Shown: one piece after another, positions 5,645-34,600 of the stretch
Layout: the number at the start of each line of letters is the position of its first letter
How positions within the stretch are numbered: the stretch's first letter is position 1
Assembly (NCBI GenBank): GCA_030949325.1
Contig: JAUZSQ010000084.1
Coordinates: 1 to 64,000, forward strand
DNA length: 64,000 nt
Direction of reading: 5' to 3'
From: Sulfurovum sp.
GTDB taxonomy: Bacteria; Campylobacterota; Campylobacteria; Campylobacterales; Sulfurovaceae
The notes under the pieces: model-generated
Seen by the model: only the letters and a program-made list of their open reading frames with translations
The model's database searches: none
What the model was told of the DNA's origin: nothing
Made by a program: the position numbers and the translations under genes

Positions 5645-6427
5645 TTGAGAGACTTTTACAAAGACCTCTTTGATGATAAATTAAGCCATTATGCATCAAG
5701 TTTGAGTTGGAGTACTATTTTCTCTATTATCCCTCTCTTGGTCATTACCCTCTCTGTTTTTACCACGATGCCTTTGTTTAATTCTATGTATGACAAAGTC
5801 GAAGCACTCATTTTTTCCAACCTCTTGCCTACTGAGTCCAAAGAAATCATGCGATACATCAATACCTTTATGGAGAACTCTGATAAGCTAGGCTATGTAG
5901 GAGCATTTTATGTCACTTTTGCCTCCATAATGTTTTTTAAAAATTATGATTATATTGTCAATAAAATTTTCAACACCCCCTCACGTCGTATTTTTCAAGC
6001 TTTTAAAACCTATATACTCTTAGTCCTTATCATCCCTACTTTGATGGCTAGTTCTTTTTATCTCTCTGCTGTACTTCAAGTGTATTTGGACAAAAGCAGT
6101 ATCACGAGCATGATTCATCTCTATAGTATATTACCCTACTTCATCGTATGGATGATGTTTTATGTAGCTTACCAACTCTCTCCCAATACAGACATAGAGA
6201 TTTCTTCTGCCCTCATTAGCTCTTTTATCACCTCTTTGGTATGGTATTTGAGTAAAAGTGCCTTTGTGTTTTATGTCTTACACAACAAAACGTATGCCAG
6301 TATCTATGGTAGTGTTTCTACTTTACTCTTCTTCTTTTTGTGGATTTATATCTCTTGGGCTATTTTTATTCATGGCTTGAAGTTTTGTGCCTTACTCAAC
6401 CAAGGCGAAGAGATAGAAAGTATATAA
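5645..6427 (+). CDS. YihY/virulence factor BrkB family membrane protein
   Basis: DKLSHYASSLSWSTIFSIIPLLVITLSVF...YGSVSTLLFFFLWIYISWAIFIHG; multiple TM segments. Confidence 0.85.
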   Translation: MRDFYKDLFDDKLSHYASSLSWSTIFSIIPLLVITLSVFTTMPLFNSMYDKVEALIFSNLLPTESKEIMRYINTFMENSDKLGYVGAFYVTFASIMFFKNYDYIVNKIFNTPSRRIFQAFKTYILLVLIIPTLMASSFYLSAVLQVYLDKSSITSMIHLYSILPYFIVWMMFYVAYQLSPNTDIEISSALISSFITSLVWYLSKSAFVFYVLHNKTYASIYGSVSTLLFFFLWIYISWAIFIHGLKFCALLNQGEEIESI

Positions 6428-15385: not shown

Positions 15386-16518
15386 AATATATTAAGTATC
15401 ATTATCTCTTACTTATTCTACTACTTACTATCTTTTTAGCTATCAGCTTCTTAACATACCAGCAAATTTTTGCAAAAAATTATATGAGTGATACCCAACC
15501 ACATATTGTATTTTTATATCAATATTTTTCTATAAAAGAATATTATATTCCTCATCCTCTTTGGCATTATTTAGTCTACATTACCTCTCTAATATTCTCT
15601 ATCTCCATTGAATATTCAGCTGTGATTAGCTCTTCTGCTCTTGTAACACTATGGACATATCTTGTTTATAGTATCGCTGGAAAGACCTTAAAGATACCAC
15701 AGTATCTACTTGTTTTAATTACTTTTTCTATTATTATCATGGGACCACTAAATTTACCTTGGTATAATATTATTATTTATATGGGTCAAGGTTCTCCCAA
15801 TATATGGCATAATGTTACTTTATGGACAGTGAAACCTTTTGCACTGCTGACTATGTTTTATATACTCTTAGCCATTACAGAAAAGAAAAATACCTATTAT
15901 ATATTTACTACTATATTTCTTACCCTTTCTCTCTTTGCCAAGCCTAGTTTTGTCATTATGTTTCTACCTGCATTATTTATATTTGCTTTCATCAAGAAAA
16001 TAAAAGATACACAATTTAAGATTTTTTTTCTTATCCTCTCTTTTATTAGTATAGCTGTACTTGCCTATCAATTCACCCATACATTCCACAATGGAGATTC
16101 TAAAGTGATTTTTGATTTTTTAGGGGTTTGGTCAGAAAAATCACAAAACATAGCCTACTCTATTCTCTTAGCTTTAGCCTTTCCCTTATTATTTTTATTA
16201 CTAGAATCTAAAATTATTCATGAGAACGCTATTTTACTGAGTTGGTTACAAGTAGGTATGGGACTGATTCTCTATAGTTCTTTTGCACAAACAGGAAAAT
16301 ACTATGCTCATGCTAACTTTTCTTGGAGCTATATGATAGCTATGAGTTTACTTTATCTATTTTCTATCATCAAATTCTTTGCACTCTATCATGTAATGAA
16401 CAAACTCAAAAGATATCTATTATTAGTGTTACTTAGTATCCAAATTTCCATTGGAATATATTATTTCCTAAAAATGTTACAAGGGCAAAGTCCATTATGG
16501 ATAGCAATTTTTATATAA
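15382..16518 (+). CDS. Polytopic membrane protein, possible GT-C-type glycosyltransferase
   Basis: About 10 hydrophobic segments; overlaps the upstream gene by 4 nt; sits in the glycan cluster. Confidence 0.55.
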   Translation: MKYIKYHYLLLILLLTIFLAISFLTYQQIFAKNYMSDTQPHIVFLYQYFSIKEYYIPHPLWHYLVYITSLIFSISIEYSAVISSSALVTLWTYLVYSIAGKTLKIPQYLLVLITFSIIIMGPLNLPWYNIIIYMGQGSPNIWHNVTLWTVKPFALLTMFYILLAITEKKNTYYIFTTIFLTLSLFAKPSFVIMFLPALFIFAFIKKIKDTQFKIFFLILSFISIAVLAYQFTHTFHNGDSKVIFDFLGVWSEKSQNIAYSILLALAFPLLFLLLESKIIHENAILLSWLQVGMGLILYSSFAQTGKYYAHANFSWSYMIAMSLLYLFSIIKFFALYHVMNKLKRYLLLVLLSIQISIGIYYFLKMLQGQSPLWIAIFI

Positions 16519-26086: not shown

Positions 26087-26323
26087 GAAAGAGGTATGAA
26101 ACCTCTCCAAGTCCGAAATCTATCCGAACGGTCGAACAGGTCTACTATGCACCTACAAAGTAAAACCACATATGTTGATACTGAGTATGGTTCCAACCAC
26201 TATGCACAAAAGTACATAGCTGAGCGTAACGGACTGAGAGTCCTACTGATTCACTCTCCTTATTCCAATATCATATTAGCTAAATCTTTATTTGATGGAT
26301 TTCTATGATGTTCAAGATACTCA

Positions 26324-26683
26324 TTAACCATCTCTTGACTTACATTTCCCGTACTCCATGCTCCATATCCTATCGCCCAAAATGCTTTCCCAATATTGTT
26401 TTGATAGTTCTTTAAACTCTTCCTGTAACTTTCTTGAACTTCGTCCTTTTAACTTCTTTACTATATCACTCACTGACACTTTTGGAGGATACTCTATATG
26501 CATATGGACATGGTCTTTACTTACCACTCCCTTTAATATTCTAATATCTTCGGCATCACATATTTGTATAATTATCTCTCTGCATCGCTTTTGTATATCA
26601 CCTTTCAAAACTCCATACCTATATTTTGTTACCCATACTATATGTACTTGTATTTGGCTTATTGTGTGATTTCCATTTCTCAT
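26324..26683 (-). mobile_element. tnpA: IS200/IS605-family TnpA-like Y1 transposase (C-terminus frameshifted)
   Basis: QIQVHIVWVTKYRYGVLKGDIQKRCREIIIQICDAEDIRILKGVVSKDHVHMHIEYPPKVSVSDIVKKLKGRSSRKLQEEF; HUH motif HVHMH. The other frame gives GYGAWSTGNVSQEMVNEYLEHH. Confidence 0.9.
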
Positions 26684-26755
26684 TCCACATTCTAACTTTT
26701 AACACATTCCTAGAAGCTAAAGCCTTGCACTAAAGTGCATAGTTTTGACTAGCGT

Positions 26756-28234
26756 GACTAGGACAATAAATTACCTAAAAGAAAAGATAGATTACCTCAT
26801 ACGCCAACAATTTACCTCCAAAAGTGAAAAACTAAACCCTAACCAACCAAGTCTGTTCGAAGATACTAAAGAGACAATCGAAGTAATAGAAGATGAAGAG
26901 ATTGAAATAACATTTAAACGAAAGAAAGGTGGAAGAACTTCACCACCTAAAGAGTTACCAAGAGTAAGAGTAGAACACGATATAGGTGATGAAGAGAAAG
27001 TGTGTAGTTGTGGTGACACAATGCATAGAGTAAAAGAGATAATATCAGAACAATACGATATCGTACCTGCAAAGTTCCAAGTCATAGAAAATGTTCGGTT
27101 CGTATATGGCTGTAGATGTGGAGAAAAACCAGTGACCACAGCATTAGCCCCATTCATACTCCCAAAGACACAAGTAACTGCTTCATTCTTAGCAACTATT
27201 GCCGTACAAAAATTTGAAGATGCATTGCCACTGTATGAGACAAGCCAAAATATTTAAAAATAGATTTGGGGTTCCATTTAGTGATACTACACTCTCCAAT
27301 TGGATGATAAAAGCTTCTGAGAAACTCAAACCTTTTAAGCAGAGACTTAAAGAGAGACTCTTAGAGAATGAATATATACAAGCAGATGAGACTACACTAC
27401 AAGTGGTGAATGCACACAAAAGCAAAGCAACGAAGAAATCCTATATATGGCTAGGTGTAGGAATGGATAAATATAAAGTAGTCTATATGCACTATGCCAA
27501 CAATAGAAGTGCCGTAGTAGCCTCTGAACTCTTTAAAGGTTTTAATGGCTATCTCCAAACAGATGGATATGCTGGATATAATGCTACAGTCCAAACAAAT
27601 GATATGACACATTTAGCGTGTTGGGCTCACGCGAGGAGAAAGTTTGCAGATATAGTCAAATCAGGAGTCAGTGACCTAGAAAGTAAGCGTTATGCACAAG
27701 AAGCCATAATACTTATACAAAAACTCTATAAAATAGAAAGAGAAATCAAAGATGACCCTCCTGATAAAAAACTACTCATCAGAAAAGAGAAATCTCAAGC
27801 TATCATCAACACCATAAGAGAATGGATTAACACAAAGTTCTATAAAGCACAAGAACTTGCTGGGGCTATTGCTAAAGCATTTGTGTATCTTAATAATCAA
27901 TTTGCTAAGTTAGAAGTCTATCTCACCGATGGCAGACTCAATATAGATAACAATGGAGCAGAGAACCATATAAGACCTATGGTACTTGGTAGGAAGAATT
28001 GGTTATTTGCTACATCTGTTAAAGGTGCTGAGGCTATTGCTACTTGGTATACTATTATTGAAACTGCAAAGGCGAATGGATTGGAACCATATCACTATTT
28101 GAAGTATCTTATGACTGAGTTTCCTTATTACCAAAGGGATGGTAGAGATATTGAAGCGTTGTTACCTTGGAATGTAAGTGATGATGGGGTAGTTAGGATT
28201 TCTTAGGGGTTGGTGGGGTTATTATGGGGGTTAC
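26756..28234 (+). mobile_element. IS66-family element, transposase N-terminally truncated and frameshifted near 27236
   Basis: ORFs 26745-27257 and 27199-28206: KSEKLNPNQPSLFEDTKE...CSCGDTMHRVKE...LPLYETSQ / FKNRFGVPFSDTTLSNWMIKASEKL...NNGAENHIRPMVLGRKNWLF. Right end GGGGGTTAC at 28234. Confidence 0.93.
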
Positions 28235-28384
28235 TGTAAATGATATATATTTTCTATAAGATTGGCTTCAAAGTTTTGAGCGTTTAGCGTATTTCTTTTT
28301 CTTTTTGTACATCGTTTGTAGGCTTGATAAATCTCTATATAGTCAAACATTTGTTTCCTTTCTTAAATTATAAACGCTTTTGGA

Positions 28385-28486
28385 CACAAGCTCTGTGGGT
28401 AACGCTAAAGCATCACATCCGAATTTTCCTCGGACACGACGGCTTTAGCCTCGTCATAGCTAAGAATAAAGCCATCACATCCAAAT
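28385..28486. repeat. REP-like palindromic repeat
   Basis: CGGACACGACGGCTTTAGCCTCGTC...AATAAAGCCATCACATCC; same core as the repeats at 29040-29177 and 29401-29428. Confidence 0.65.
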
Positions 28487-28493
28487 AATAATA

Positions 28494-29015
28494 TTAATCA
28501 TATATACTGTAAAATCGTCTATCACTATCTTCTAAACCTGCTTTAATCGTATTATTTTCTATATATCTATAAACAACATCAAAGTGTTTTTTATCTCTAA
28601 TGCTTTTATCATAAAATGATTTTGCCCAAAACTGACCTTTTTGATTCAATTTTTTATTGATTTCAAAAAGCCAATCCACCCTTTAATTTTCGTATGGCTT
28701 CACTCAAAGGCATTGTCTCTTTAAAAAGAATATGTATATGATTTGGCATAATGCTAAAACATATCAGTTCAAAAAGTTTTTTATCTTGTTTACGGATATA
28801 CTCTTTTGATAACGCTAAAATACTGTTATTTAAATACCTACCATGAGAAGAACTATCTAAGTATTTATCTATTTGATATTGTTTATTATGGTTTTCTATT
28901 GGTAAATTCATCACTCTTTTTAGATATTCATCAAGACTGTCTTTTGTACGAAAAGTTAAAAATTGATAATATCCATAATTTGAGATATGTGGTAAATTTT
29001 TATACAAAATACTCC
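28494..29015 (-). pseudogene. REP-associated (RAYT/Y1) transposase, frameshifted
   Basis: ISNYGYYQFLTFRTKDS...LICFSIMPNHIHILFKETMPLSEAIRKLKGG (28663-29208) continuing as WLFEINKKLNQKGQFWAKSFYDKSIRDKKHFDVVYRYIENNTIKAGL (28494-28679). Confidence 0.85.
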
Positions 29016-29028
29016 TTTTTGGTGAGAC

Positions 29029-29177
29029 TAAAGTCTCACATCCAATAACTTTCTCTTTCGGACACGATGGCTTTAGCCTCGTCTTGAGTAATGCTGAAGC
29101 ATCACATCCAATAATTTTCTCTTTCGGACATGATGGCTTTAGCCTCGTCTTCGGTGAGACTAAAGCCATCATGTCCG
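29029..29177. repeat. REP-like repeats: two direct copies ending in an 18-bp perfect palindrome
   Basis: CACATCCAATAAY-TTTCTCTTTCGGACAYGATGGCTTTAGCCTCGTCTT twice; CGGACATGATGGCTTTAG (29125-29142) is a perfect inverted repeat of CTAAAGCCATCATGTCCG (29160-29177). Confidence 0.85.
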
Positions 29178-29192
29178 ATAATTTAATTATTA

Positions 29193-29327
29193 TCCTGCTC
29201 TCACACAACGAACATATTTACTATTGTTCTTATTGTTGTTGTTCGTATTACCATTGTTGAAATTCACATTCCAAGCATTGTTAGTATTACTCGCATTGCT
29301 AGTAGAACTCCAATAGTTGCTAGAGAT
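29193..29327 (-). other. DGR template repeat (TR)
   Basis: 135-bp ungapped near-copy of 29869-30003. The minus-strand reading is dense in AAY codons (SSNYWSSTSNASNTNNAWNVNFNNGNTNNNNKNNSKYVRCVRAG*). All 14 differences from the VR are at coding-strand A in this copy. Confidence 0.93.
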
Positions 29328-29400
29328 TAAGTTTTTCTCTTTAGCTTTTATAGTAAAAAGTGTTACTACAAAAGTGTCAAAGACTCTATACCACTAAACT

Positions 29401-29428
29401 AGAGACGAGGCTAAAGCCATCGTCTCCG
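29401..29428. repeat. REP-like repeat between avd and TR
   Basis: GAGACGAGGCTAAAGCCATCGTCTC: self-palindromic, same core as neighbouring repeats. Confidence 0.6.
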
Positions 29429-29482
29429 AATTCAATGGTGGAAAAACTGCACAATATTTTGGTACTCTTTCAAAAGACAGTA

Positions 29483-29836
29483 TCATTTTGAAATTCTCGC
29501 CGTACTTTTCAGCCATCCTTGGGCTTGGATAACTACTGCCATCGTAAGCTTAGAAACCTGCTCAAACTGCTTTAAACCATTAAAAGCTTTAAGTTCTTGA
29601 CATACTCTAATGAGCATCTTTAACTCTTCACATTTATCTCGTAATTGTTCTAACTCCTTTTGTCTATTTTGAGCCATATTGGCTCTTTGAATGATAAACA
29701 TTATCTCTTTACTATAAAGTCTCAAATCCAAACCAATACTATATTTTTCGTATCTATCAAAGCCTTTTACTATCTTTTCGATATAAACCACAAGGTTCAA
29801 AGCAGATTTAAAAATCGGTAAATTATCATAATACAT
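29483..29836 (-). CDS. avd: DGR accessory variability determinant (Avd)-like four-helix bundle protein
   Basis: LPIFKSALNLVVYIEKIVKGFDRYEKYSIGLDLRLYSKEIMFIIQRANMAQNRQKELEQLRDKCEELKMLIRVCQELKAFNGLKQFEQVSKLTMAVVIQAQGWLKS; lies between VR and TR as in canonical DGRs. Confidence 0.88.
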   Translation of the reverse strand: MYYDNLPIFKSALNLVVYIEKIVKGFDRYEKYSIGLDLRLYSKEIMFIIQRANMAQNRQKELEQLRDKCEELKMLIRVCQELKAFNGLKQFEQVSKLTMAVVIQAQGWLKSTARISK

Positions 29837-29862
29837 ATTTTTCCTTTAAAGTAAAAAAGTGA

Positions 29863-30321
29863 CTATTGTCCTGCTCTCACACAACGAACATAGAAACTAT
29901 TGCTCTTATTGTAGTAGTACGTATTACCATTGTAGAAATCCACATACCAAGCATAGCTAGTATAACTCGCATTGCTAGTAGAACTCCAATAGTAGCTAGA
30001 GATAGTATTTTGAAATTGACTATCAATACTAGGACTATATTTGCCATTATCCACGATAAAGAGTAACTCTTTGACCGTAGGCAATCGCCATCCTCCACCA
30101 CCTAAGCTAAGGTTAGAACAATAGGTAGAAGCTGTATCACCACTCGTATTAGCATAATTTCCTGCGTCATAATTGGCTTGTGTCACCCAAGGCTTTGATA
30201 CCGTTTCATTGTCTTGCCATTCTAAATTTGTGACATGGTCTGTGACTATGCCGTAGGTATCATTTCTTGTGTATTGTGGTGTTGTAAAATGTACCCCAAA
30301 GTCAAGACCAATAAAATCCAA
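29863..30321 (-). CDS. DGR target protein, DUF1566/Lcl C-terminal (C-type-lectin-like) domain; possibly the 3' part of a larger gene split by IS3
   Basis: YTRNDTYGIVTDHVTNLEWQDNE...GGGGWRLPTVKELLFIVDNGKYSPSIDSQFQNTISSYYWSSTSNASYTSYAWYVDFYNGNTYYYNKSNSFYVRCVRAGQ*. Confidence 0.88.
   Translation of the reverse strand: MDFIGLDFGVHFTTPQYTRNDTYGIVTDHVTNLEWQDNETVSKPWVTQANYDAGNYANTSGDTASTYCSNLSLGGGGWRLPTVKELLFIVDNGKYSPSIDSQFQNTISSYYWSSTSNASYTSYAWYVDFYNGNTYYYNKSNSFYVRCVRAGQ
29869..30003 (-). repeat. DGR variable repeat (VR)
   Basis: Paired with TR at a constant offset of 676 nt. Differences on the coding strand (TR to VR): 10 A>T, 3 A>G, 1 A>C, no non-A substitution. The invariant TATGTTCGTTGTGTGAGAGCAGGA 3' end is IMH-like. 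Confidence 0.93.
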
Positions 30322-30323
30322 TT

Positions 30324-31604
30324 CCTTATTCCACCTCAGGATGCTACATCTAGTAACATTTCCCTACTCTGAAATACCTGATTATTCACCCCTTTAAAAT
30401 ACATTTCATCAGGAGTAGCATAGTCCAAAGTTTGATGAAGTCTTTCTGTGTTGTAAATATTGATATACTTTCCTATCCCTGTTCTAGCTTCTTTGATGGT
30501 CGAGTAGCTTTGAGGATAAACATCTTCATATTTAAGTGACCTCCAAAATCGTTCAATTACAATATTGTCAGTCGCTCTTCCTTTTCCATCCATTGAAATA
30601 GAAATATTGTTATCAACTAATATTTGAATATGCTCTTTTGCTGTATATTGAGAACCTTGGTCTGTGTTAAATATCTCAGGTTTATCATACTGCTCCAAGG
30701 CTTCTTTCAGTACCCCAGTTGTGAGTGATACATCCATCGTATTTGAGAGCTTCCAAGAGAGTATCTTTTTGGTGTTCCAATCAATGACTGCGGACCAAAT
30801 AGACAAAGCCTTTGTCCAATTTGATATAGGTAATATCGGTACTCCAAACTTGATTGGGTTTATCAATAACCACTTGATTTTTATCATTCTTAAATGCCTT
30901 CAATAAATATGGATATTTCTGATGCTCTTTATTGGCTATGGTTGTCTTAGGCTTCGGATATAAGGCGATGATACCCATGAGCTTCATTGCAGTCCTAACC
31001 TTCTTTCGTCCGATGGTAAAGCCAAATCTACCTAACAGTTTATGCACTCTTCTATGTCCATAATAGGGATACTTTGTATAGATTTTATCTATCACATTGA
31101 GTATCTCTTGACCTGTATCACTACTGAATGGTACTACTGCTTTATAATAGATTGAACTCTTAGGAATACTCAATAGTTTTAGCTGTGTATTTTTGGATAT
31201 TTCAAGCCCAGTTTCCAGTAGTTCTTTTCTACTTTTAGAGGATACCGAGCTTTTTAGCTTTCCCACGACGAAGTCTCTCTCTACTATCACTTCACCCAGC
31301 TTTTTTGAAGTTGCATCTTTCTCTCTTTCAAGAGTTTCAATCTGTTCTTTATACTCTTTGACCACTGCACTTTTATCAAATGCTAGTGAAGCATTTTCTA
31401 AAAATTGCTTTTTCCAATTTTGGAGACTCTTAGGTAAAACTTCATAACTACTGGCTATCTCATTGAGGGTCCTTTCTTCTCTCAGAACTTCCACTACTAA
31501 TTTGGCTTTATACTCTGCACTATATGTTTTTCTTTTTCTACTCATTTTATACCCCTTGCTTTATTATTTATATTTTAGCATTTTATTGCTTTTTTGGAAT
31601 AATG
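30324..31604 (-). mobile_element. IS3-family insertion sequence (OrfA/OrfB)
   Basis: ORF 30781-31545 (MSRKRKTYSAEYKAKLVVEVLREERTLNEIAS...HRRVHKLLGRFG) and 30336-30887 (DWNTKKILSWKLSNTMDVSLTTGVLKEAL...FNTDQGSQYTAKEH...IERFWRSLKYEDVYPQ). Ends CCTTATTCCA/TGGAATAATG, flanked by ATT (30321-30323 and 31605-31607). Confidence 0.93.
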
Positions 31605-31606
31605 AT

Positions 31607-33064
31607 TTACTTTTTTTGGTGCTGGTTATGGGGTACATTATAGGTACTAGGGGGTACTATATCTTCTGATGGATAATTATCTAAAAATGTTTTGAAATAG
31701 TTCCATGTAGAATGGTTACAATTCATACTATCTGTACAACCTTGTAAGCCTACTTCAGATTGATGGTCTATCTTATAAAAAGACACAGCTTCATGATTAA
31801 CTTTATATTGTCCTGTACGATGGTTGTATCCACTAGCAAAGTACTCTAAATCATACTTTGTTAAATCTGTCCTATAATCATCAATATTCCAACTATCATT
31901 TATAACCCCAAGTGAGTACTCATTGACAATCCAATCATCAACACCCCGATAAAAAACACTACTTCTACCATCCATAGGCAAAATATGTTCTTCAATATGG
32001 TTCTCATTATACATTCCATCTAAATCATCTTGGTCTGCATCAGGAACAATTCGTTGCCCAAATATAGAGATGAGATTATCTCCTGCACCTGGATTTTGAC
32101 TTGCTTCATCGTCAAAAAAGTCATAAGATAGTGAAACTACCCCAGTAAATAAGTTTGTTGTTCCCGAAACAGATTCAGGGACTACCCCTATCAAAGCTTG
32201 TGTTGGTATATTGGGATAATTAACTAATCCACTAAATAATCGATGTATTACTGTTCCATATTGAGCATCTGTACCATATAAAGCTTGATTTCGATTGAGT
32301 AAAGATACCGAGTTTCCTGCCTGATAGCAAGTAATGGCTTGACAGTTTTCTATCAAGGCTCCTATAAACCCTTGTCTTCCTTCAGGAAAAGTTAGAGGCT
32401 TATTATCTAAGGTAAAAGTAGTCTTTGAACCAAATACACCACTATGAGGTGTTCCCACCGTGGTTAATGAGGCTATATGTTTTTCTGAAAAATCATTATG
32501 ATAAGGACTCATAGTACTTTGCCCTTGAATAAGTGTTCTTGATAGTAGTCCCCCAAAAGAGTGTGCTACAATATGTACTTTTTTACCTGTTTGTTTAACA
32601 ATTTGTTTAATTGCTCTTCCTAAGTCATCTGCAACATCTTCAAACTTTGCATTGGTTCTCCACTGAAAAACAAAAGGAATAAATTCTTTATCTGTATTTT
32701 CACCTTTATAATTTTCTAAAATATTTGGAAATTTTGCAAAATATTCTCCCCCTACTTCCCCACCACCATGGTCATATCCTCCTAATTTCCCTGAATTGAT
32801 AAAACCATGTACAAATAAAATAGCTTCTTTATCAGATATATCTCTAGTATCAGAAAGAGTACTTCTTAGAGATGTTGCACATAATAGTTCTGCACCCATA
32901 ACTGCTTTTCCATTCTGTACCCTAGGATGACCTCCCGTAAATCCTTCTCCTACTCTCCATACATCACTATCAAAAATAGCCATTGTACCTTGCCAGACAA
33001 AAGGAAATATTGTACCATCATTATTTTCATCAGTCCAAACCATCTCATTTATTCTTCCATTCAC
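31607..33064 (-). CDS. Secreted alpha/beta-hydrolase (lipase-like) segment
   Basis: AILFVHGFINSGKLGGYDHGGG...GRAIKQIVKQTGKKVHIVAHSFGGLLSRTLIQGQ...ASLTTVGTPHSG; nucleophile-elbow-like AHSFGG. Confidence 0.75.
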   Translation of the reverse strand: MNGRINEMVWTDENNDGTIFPFVWQGTMAIFDSDVWRVGEGFTGGHPRVQNGKAVMGAELLCATSLRSTLSDTRDISDKEAILFVHGFINSGKLGGYDHGGGEVGGEYFAKFPNILENYKGENTDKEFIPFVFQWRTNAKFEDVADDLGRAIKQIVKQTGKKVHIVAHSFGGLLSRTLIQGQSTMSPYHNDFSEKHIASLTTVGTPHSGVFGSKTTFTLDNKPLTFPEGRQGFIGALIENCQAITCYQAGNSVSLLNRNQALYGTDAQYGTVIHRLFSGLVNYPNIPTQALIGVVPESVSGTTNLFTGVVSLSYDFFDDEASQNPGAGDNLISIFGQRIVPDADQDDLDGMYNENHIEEHILPMDGRSSVFYRGVDDWIVNEYSLGVINDSWNIDDYRTDLTKYDLEYFASGYNHRTGQYKVNHEAVSFYKIDHQSEVGLQGCTDSMNCNHSTWNYFKTFLDNYPSEDIVPPSTYNVPHNQHQKK

Positions 33065-33672
33065 GACACCTGGTCTACATTCTGATGGAACACCTTGTGA
33101 AGTCCAAATGGAATATTCATAGGTCTCTCCACTTTTAAAGTTCTTGTTTGTCTTGTCGTTTGATTAGGTGTAAAATAATTTCGTTTTATTAGTTCATAAG
33201 AGGGTTGAAGTATATTCAATTCTGACATTTCTGTCCTATTCATATCAGGTGTAATATTAAACCATAAAGACAATCTACCATCATTTGTCAATCCAGCATT
33301 ATATTCTATCTCATAAGTTTGATTCAATTTATTAGCATCTACAGAAATCCTAATATCTTTCCATTCATTCTCAATCTTACCTCCTTGAATACCAAGCTCA
33401 CCTGAGACTAAAGTAACCTTTTTTACCAAAGAAACTATAATAGTTTTGGTTCTTCCTATCGGTATATTATTGACCAAAATTTCTAGCTCCACACTAAAAT
33501 CTCCATAGGCAGTTAAAGCTGTATCAGGAGTCAAGATTAAGCTATTTCCTTGGATACTTATCCAATCAACCCCACTGACTTTACGAATAATAATAGGAGT
33601 ATTATTCGTATCTACAAAATCTAAAAATACTGCGATTTCCTTTTCTTGCCCAGAAAAAATAGAAATAGATTC
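33061..33672 (-). CDS. Ig/cadherin-like segment of the same surface protein (frame-disrupted)
   Basis: The supplied ORF starts at 33534 but the same frame is open upstream: PINESISIFSGQEKEIAVFLDFVDTNNTPIIIRKVSGVDWISIQGNSLILTPDTALTAYGDFSVELEILVNN. Confidence 0.5.
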   Translation of the reverse strand, partial: ESISIFSGQEKEIAVFLDFVDTNNTPIIIRKVSGVDWISIQGNSLILTPDTALTAYGDFSVELEILVNNIPIGRTKTIIVSLVKKVTLVSGELGIQGGKIENEWKDIRISVDANKLNQTYEIEYNAGLTNDGRLSLWFNITPDMNRTEMSELNILQPSYELIKRNYFTPNQTTRQTRTLKVERPMNIPFGLHKVFHQNVDQVS

Positions 33673-33673
33673 A

Positions 33674-34600
33674 TTAATAGGCTAAAATATTTGCAACACC
33701 CCCATGAGCCATACTAAATACACTCATTTTATCTCTTCCTAATTGACTATCAGTCACATCAAGAATTATTTTATCTACCCAAATATCTACTTCATCTCCT
33801 TGCCATGCATCAAGTTCATTCATATTTACAAACGAAGGGTCACGCTCAAACCAATCCTCTTTTTTTAGCATACCCATATTCACCATTTGTTGAAGAGATT
33901 GTTCTCGTTTGGCTATAGATGGGGTATTGTTATCCATAGCTGATTGGGCTACAAGTGTCGTAATTGAAGTTAAGTTTAATGTATCGAGATTATCATCTAC
34001 ACTATAGAGTGAACGAAGTGTAGCATTAAAATCTAGACCATTCATCGTTCCACCTGTCGCTTCAAGTATAAACTCATGACCTATCTCTTCTAAAACACTT
34101 AAACTAAAGTTACCATTTTCATCTGTAGTCGTGCTATAAATCTCTTCATGAGCTAAAGAAAATACTTTAACAGTTCCCCCACTGATAGGGTCATCACCTA
34201 CAGTACCTCCTATGCTATCTACAAGTTGAATGGTAAAAGTTAAGCCCTCACTTCTTAATCCCTTACTATCTTCTAGTATGATTTCAAAAGTATTATCGCC
34301 ATCAGTAAAAGTAAGAGGGATAGAATACTCACCATTGCTATCAATGACTCCAAGCAGTGAACCATTGAGATACACACTAGCCCCAACCTCTCCTGCTATG
34401 TCGATGCTAAGCGTACTTTGTGTCGTGATACTCGGCACATCCGAAAGAAAAGAAGCTTGTGAGAGTGTCGCTGTATCAGAAAGTATAAAATTACTAATCA
34501 CCCCTAACACAGCATGAAGTTTAGCCTCATCAAGGTTTGTATTTGCCGATATATTTGCTGTACCAAAGAGTAAGAAGAAGAGAATGAGCAGTTTTTTCAT
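33674..34600 (-). CDS. Secreted surface protein N-terminal region with Ig/carboxypeptidase-regulatory-like domains
   Basis: Signal peptide MKKLLILFFLLFGTANISA; STLSIDIAGEVGASVYLNGSLLGVIDSNGEYSIPLTFTDGDNTFEIILEDSKG; STTTDENGNFSLSV. Confidence 0.6.
   Translation of the reverse strand: MKKLLILFFLLFGTANISANTNLDEAKLHAVLGVISNFILSDTATLSQASFLSDVPSITTQSTLSIDIAGEVGASVYLNGSLLGVIDSNGEYSIPLTFTDGDNTFEIILEDSKGLRSEGLTFTIQLVDSIGGTVGDDPISGGTVKVFSLAHEEIYSTTTDENGNFSLSVLEEIGHEFILEATGGTMNGLDFNATLRSLYSVDDNLDTLNLTSITTLVAQSAMDNNTPSIAKREQSLQQMVNMGMLKKEDWFERDPSFVNMNELDAWQGDEVDIWVDKIILDVTDSQLGRDKMSVFSMAHGGVANILAY

Follow-up and report, generated by a model that had tools for sequence, protein, structure and literature searches.

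The window analyzed here, a 64,000-nucleotide stretch of a Sulfurovum sp. genome, carries two 135-nt repeats bearing the signature of a diversity-generating retroelement (DGR), and the question it raises is whether this element still diversifies its target or is only what is left of one that did. Any DGR requires a reverse transcriptase (RT), and the fate of that gene bears on the answer. A second question follows from the sequence just ahead of the template, where a structured RNA element has been kept.

Template and Variable Repeats

The template repeat (TR) occupies positions 29193..29327 and the variable repeat (VR), which forms the 3' end of the target ORF, occupies 29869..30003. Both lie on the minus strand and align over 135 nt without a gap. 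All 14 differences between them fall on TR adenines (10 A>T, 3 A>G, and 1 A>C), and the 83 sites at which the TR has another base show none. With 52 adenines among the 135 nt of the TR, the probability that 14 random sites would all land on A is about 5e-7. Similarity drops sharply beyond the ends of the repeats, a few bases excepted, and the final 24 nt are identical in both copies, forming an invariant 3' segment that resembles an initiation of mutagenic homing (IMH) site and may act as one. The first-pass annotation had reported two ungapped 135-nt copies, the adenine-only substitutions, and the invariant IMH-like end; re-alignment confirmed the coordinates and the alignment, and a recount of the substitutions returned the same numbers. 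Its recognition of a DGR signature is likewise borne out, by the adenine-only pattern, the avd gene, and the DUF1566/Lcl_C target that accompany the repeats, and by recurrence of the adenine pattern in two related DGRs. In a Sulfurovum sp. metagenome-assembled genome (MAG), JAMOTK01 (hereafter G019), 22/22 and 16/16 differences in two TR/VR pairs are at A, and in a Campylobacterales MAG, JALULO010000239 (L131), the counts are 17/19 and 18/19.

The presence of the repeats is all that speaks for an ordinary duplication in which selection, and no DGR, produced the adenine-biased divergence. This explanation is hardly credible, as it is already contradicted by an Avd, an Lcl_C target, an RT stub, complete orthologous DGRs, and the recurrence of an A-only pattern in several repeat pairs.

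The Target Gene and avd

The 3' part of the target gene, with the VR, spans 29863..30284 on the minus strand. The ORF that bears it (29863-30321) matches the Pfam family Lcl_C (DUF1566, PF07603) with E=2e-30, which agrees with the DUF1566/C-type-lectin-type target named in the earlier annotation; the part of this ORF from 30285 to 30321 is IS3-family element sequence and does not belong to the target. From the Lcl_C/DUF1566 match, the domain is predicted to be C-type-lectin-like, DUF1566 having been linked to the CLec fold (PMC6642488).

The target gene is split by an IS3-family insertion (30285..31642, minus strand) with HTH_Tnp_1/rve domains; roughly a dozen nearly identical copies with the same ends occur in the assembly. 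A target-site duplication of this element was looked for and none was resolved. On its far side, three minus-strand ORFs (31643..34600) form the probable 5' part of the target, a secreted protein with Ig-like and esterase-like parts (Pfam Big_6 and DUF676) whose N-terminus resembles that of the G019 target. The reading frame is off by one across the IS3 junction in the simplest join. Since other genes of the assembly also look broken, the single-base frame breaks in the 5' ORFs may be assembly errors.

The gene for the accessory variability determinant, avd, lies at 29483..29836 on the minus strand. Its match to bAvd (PF22296, E=1.6e-7) is below the Pfam cut-off, and its product is 88% identical to the Avd of G019 and 66% identical to that of L131, both of which belong to DGRs with an RT. 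A PDB sequence-profile search with Avd returned no match. Elsewhere in the same genome, contig C87 starts with two tandem Lcl_C/DUF1566-like C-termini (L032:1-863) that weakly resemble the window TR and are perhaps targets of another or older TR.

Complete Relatives

The G019 cassette is orthologous to that of the window, with 95% identity in the TR, 83% in avd, and a REP/RAYT block in common, and its order is target-VR-avd-TR-REP/RAYT-RT-target2. It differs in having a complete RT ORF, a second target after the RT, and a further VR on its contig C30 (L084:6119-6253); this VR departs from the G019 TR at 22 sites, of which 20 are adenines. L131 has the same gene order (target-VR-avd-TR-RT-target2), an Avd that is 66% identical to the window protein, and the linker helix described below, kept with other letters. 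It differs from the window in being compact and complete: there are no REP, RAYT, or IS insertions, and its RT starts 2 nt after the TR. A third complete copy is found in G021. The RTs of G019, L131, and G021 align over their full length and keep the LQLD, GLPIGNLTSQ, and YVDD motifs. In the G019 RT (L079:5654-7000), in-frame REP repeats add about 80 residues between LQLD and GLPIGNLTSQ; despite this insertion, both nearby VRs differ from their TR only at adenines. A literature search covering few subscription papers found none on DGRs in Sulfurovum.

Loss of the Reverse Transcriptase

The arrangement target-VR-avd-TR had been called canonical in the first-pass annotation. The order is right, but the RT expected after the TR is absent, a fact that went unremarked, and the working DGR thereby implied does not survive closer analysis: the RT is a 39-codon stub, no other RVT_1 match exists in the assembly, and the target is cut by the IS3-family element. 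The stub (28235..28350, minus strand) comprises the first 39 codons of a DGR reverse transcriptase, with 77% identity over 39 residues to the N-terminus of the G019 RT (E=3e-14). Its end coincides exactly with that of an IS66-type element (26765..28234, plus strand; DDE_Tnp_IS66, E=7e-82). The right end of this element, ...GGGGGTTAC, is identical in other genomic copies, and at several other IS66 copies the flanking bases match as an 8-bp target duplication. Its left end is lost, replaced by an IS200-type element (26194..26770, minus strand) with many copies in the assembly, and the same IS200-IS66 junction occurs on contig C111. Because the stub ends at IS66 and the left end of IS66 has itself been replaced by IS200, nothing more of the RT, nor any second target, is left at the locus. 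The genome as a whole carries a heavy load of IS66, IS200, and IS3-family elements on many contigs, in near-identical copies, several of them at contig ends.

No RT was found elsewhere in the whole 2.53-Mb assembly (115 contigs, 93% complete), either with Pfam RVT_1, for which control genomes matched as expected, or with the sister RT from G019 as query. Weak RT matches on contigs C63 and C2 were rejected as plasmid replication-type proteins. These two contigs (L101 and L102) are small and plasmid-like, with replication-protein and mobilization-like ORFs and near-identical genes in common. The DGR locus of the window had no match in a plasmid collection. TR-like matches on contigs C63, C1, C16, and C110 are short and look like chance. 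Since neither the locus nor the genome holds a DGR-type RT, the locus is filed as a DGR remnant and not as a functional DGR. It is most likely just that: an element whose RT was cut by an IS66-type element and whose target was cut by an IS3-family element, leaving the VR frozen.

Could the truncation be an artefact of assembly, a misjoin at the multicopy IS66 and IS200 sequences, with the RT intact in the organism? Copies of both elements are numerous and 95-100% identical, repeats of this kind are prone to misjoining, and several other genes in the assembly look frame-broken. Against a misjoin, however, the stub abuts the precise end of IS66, which is what a true insertion would produce, no contig was found to encode the missing remainder of the RT, and relatives have also lost or broken their RTs: G030 keeps only ~75 C-terminal residues, and the RTs of G158 and G305 are broken. 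A misjoin is accordingly very improbable. G030 (L080:5735-6567) is a further Sulfurovum DGR whose RT is incomplete, a small ORF (5900-6284) standing in place of the rest of the gene. In the related RTs of G158 (L142) and G305 (L138 and L144), the damage is either a truncation combined with an internal stop or a frame break that splits the gene.

It is also conceivable that the cassette is active with an RT supplied in trans, the likeliest source being a second cassette on contig C77 whose RT would lie beyond the contig end. C77 does hold target-VR-avd-TR, with the contig ending inside a TR that is 84% identical to that of the window; the TR and VR of the window are free of non-adenine differences, and G019 demonstrates that remote VRs exist. 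This supply in trans is nonetheless unlikely. No RT was found in the assembly, the C77 target is out of frame within its VR and has an internal stop, and the window target is cut by the IS3-family element, making its VR irrelevant for a full-length protein. Viewed by itself, the C77 locus (L031, contig end at 23235) is a second DGR-like cassette in which both VR and target look frame-broken.

The window copy is thus most likely a recently silenced DGR. The decay, if real, would be recent because no non-adenine difference has accumulated between TR and VR, a state that also fits recent retrohoming in the window lineage.

The REP/RAYT Block and the Timing of Retrohoming

The gap between the TR and the RT stub is itself occupied by mobile DNA. 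REP-like repeats (28429-28454, 29057-29082, and 29123-29148) surround a broken REP-associated (Y1) transposase, the whole block spanning 28429..29148 on the minus strand. Y1_Tnp (PF01797) matches two broken ORFs here (28494-28679 and 28663-29208) at E~1e-4, just below the cut-off, and matches the intact transposase of G019 at E=8e-12. The two marks of a REP/RAYT system, a Y1 transposase and flanking palindromic repeats, are therefore both present in the window. The clustering of palindromic repeats around a Y1 transposase is what REP elements with RAYT transposases have in common with this block; the difference is that 4/6 repeat copies found in the window genome sit in the DGR and that the G019 array also lies in frame inside the RT. 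One REP-like hairpin (29405..29430, plus strand) has inserted into the avd-TR linker, where it occupies the loop of the RNA element's second hairpin.

The block is orthologous between the window and G019, with 81% identity over the RAYT gene compared with 83% over avd and 95% over the TR, and it is absent from L131, G021, and G030. The TRs of the window and G019 differ at seven sites, and each VR follows its own TR at 7/7. Outgroup TRs assign four of these sites (27, 30, 43, and 117) to the G019 branch, and both G019 VRs follow there. As TR changes that arose on the G019 branch were copied into both of its VRs, both must have been rewritten after the split. On the simplest reading, the REP/RAYT block was acquired before the two species separated and did not stop retrohoming afterward; two independent insertions at one site, or transfer from one species to the other, would be conceivable alternatives. 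The window branch has few clearly derived TR changes, perhaps at site 78 and possibly at site 8, and post-split retrohoming is better shown for G019 than for the window lineage.

These observations suggest a course of events for the window copy. In its active phase, RNA spanning avd and TR would have been copied by an adenine-error-prone RT together with Avd, and the resulting cDNA would have overwritten the VR of a secreted surface protein bearing the Lcl_C domain. REP elements and a RAYT transposase would have entered the TR-RT gap and the avd-TR linker before the split from the sister species, in whose lineage the DGR would have kept working with these insertions present. Later, an IS66-type element would have cut the RT after codon 39, the rest of the gene being lost, and an IS3-family element would have cut the target. 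The VR is now most likely frozen.

A Conserved RNA Helix Ahead of the Template

The linker between the avd stop codon and the TR measures about 110 to 210 nt across DGRs. Within it, two 8-nt arms pair with each other: the first follows a YTGKGC-like motif, and the second ends near the start of the TR. In the window, the structured RNA element occupies 29326..29470 on the minus strand, and the 5' arm of this helix, H1 (AGTTTTTC; 29441..29448, minus strand), is complementary at 8/8 positions to the 3' arm (GAAAAACT; 29330..29337, minus strand), which ends 2 nt before the TR. The window linker folds with z=-6.7, a value owed in part to the REP hairpin itself; lying in the loop of the second hairpin, that insertion leaves H1 intact.

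The helix was initially recognized by visual inspection of a few sequences, and the comparison was afterward widened to DGRs from 10 Campylobacterota loci and 18 viral contigs. Because the arms had been chosen partly by their pairing, three controls were applied. Across 20 distinct DGRs from Campylobacterota and viral contigs, 160/160 cells of the helix are paired, and 8/8 pairs are changed on both sides in some of them. The helix thus covaries: cells changed on both sides number 59, compared with 18.7 in shuffles of the 20 distinct sequences, and sliding the partner arm by 1-3 columns leaves at most 50% of cells paired. In a motif scan, the 600 nt preceding each of 45 viral RT starts were searched for the 5' motif, an AA before the second arm, and full pairing; this gave one match at similar distances in each of the 21 loci of the closest RT branch and 0 in the other 24. 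A covariance model of 20 other DGRs, from which the window, G019, and G046 were left out, matched all three at the predicted places (E=0.0014, E=0.018, and E=9e-6, respectively).

The same model gave no match in more distant DGRs or in those of Shewanella, Burkholderia, and Bacteroides phages, and the element is therefore confined to one RT branch. Matches in the viral contig L165 (E=0.5) and at 15903-16005 of G019 (E=0.05) were treated as chance. In the Shewanella phage vB_Sb_QDWS (L202:2456-3156), an Avd-like gene, a linker, and a TR-like asparagine-rich stretch lie near an RT gene; the linker does not fit the model, though the layout is similar. A search of Rfam 15 gave no match for the linker element and returned only a tRNA in the window. 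No description of the 5' element, its helix, or its covariation was found in a literature search covering few subscription papers, and the RNA may be new.

Comparison with the BPP-1 Retroelement

The DGR of the Bordetella phage BPP-1 resembles the elements described here in having target-VR, avd, and TR on one strand with the RT downstream, in its adenine-specific TR/VR differences, and in its C-type-lectin-like target. A 2025 structural study of BPP-1 is said to have found that RNA upstream and downstream of the template both take part, so a role for upstream RNA would not in itself be new. The placement of the structured RNA is where the systems part. In BPP-1 (AY029185), avd abuts the TR, and ~144 nt separate the TR from brt. 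This spacer folds, recruits bRT-Avd, and primes cDNA synthesis, and BPP-1 needs this structured RNA adjoining its TR (PMC12875486); a review also puts the structured RNA after the TR (PMC8867640). In the branch described here, by contrast, it is the avd-TR linker that holds the conserved RNA, and in L131 only 2 nt remain after the TR before the RT starts. A structured TR-RT spacer with avd abutting the TR is thus not the arrangement found, the conserved element being 5' of the TR, and no linker helix is present in the region of BPP-1 that was examined. In one pair, G021 and G428, the 3' spacer is identical at 50/110 aligned positions and the linker at 69/98. The window differs from BPP-1 further in that its RT is a stub only.

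The conserved fold immediately before the TR is probably part of how this DGR branch works, and its position suggests a variant RNA architecture. The linker forms a conserved RNA in which the 8-bp helix is closed directly ahead of the TR, and its likeliest function would be to hold the RT-Avd complex and to set the 5' limit or the priming geometry of cDNA synthesis. The stronger proposal, that a scaffold for mutagenic reverse transcription lies 5' of the TR and replaces the 3' spacer of BPP-1, is a tentative one, possible but short of probable. If true, such a scaffold would explain how the system could accommodate a REP/RAYT block separating the TR from the RT.

The linker sits between two genes of one operon, and intergenic hairpins often regulate expression, so the RNA could be real and yet an ordinary operon regulator, such as an attenuator, an RNA processing site, or a translational control of the RT, with no scaffolding role. 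In Campylobacterota and in viral contigs alike, however, it travels with the TR and RT and always lies just before the TR, and in BPP-1 a structured RNA adjoining the TR is a known requirement (PMC12875486). Regulation alone is for these reasons a rather doubtful account of the element, and a function in cDNA synthesis is preferred.

Implications

The window illustrates how a DGR can come to an end: its RT is eliminated by mobile elements, and what stays behind is avd, TR, VR, and the RNA element. Remnants of this kind, having no RT, would escape DGR searches based on that gene.

In BPP-1, the RNA adjoining the template decides how cDNA synthesis begins and ends, and the scaffold known there lies 3' of the TR. 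The covarying helix 5' of the TR in 20 DGRs, together with diversification despite a REP/RAYT block, suggests that other DGR branches organize their RNA differently. The linker RNA and the tolerated block likely make this branch a variant in RNA architecture, and the linker RNA bears both on the question of which segment of the template RNA is needed and on the design of compact DGR tools.
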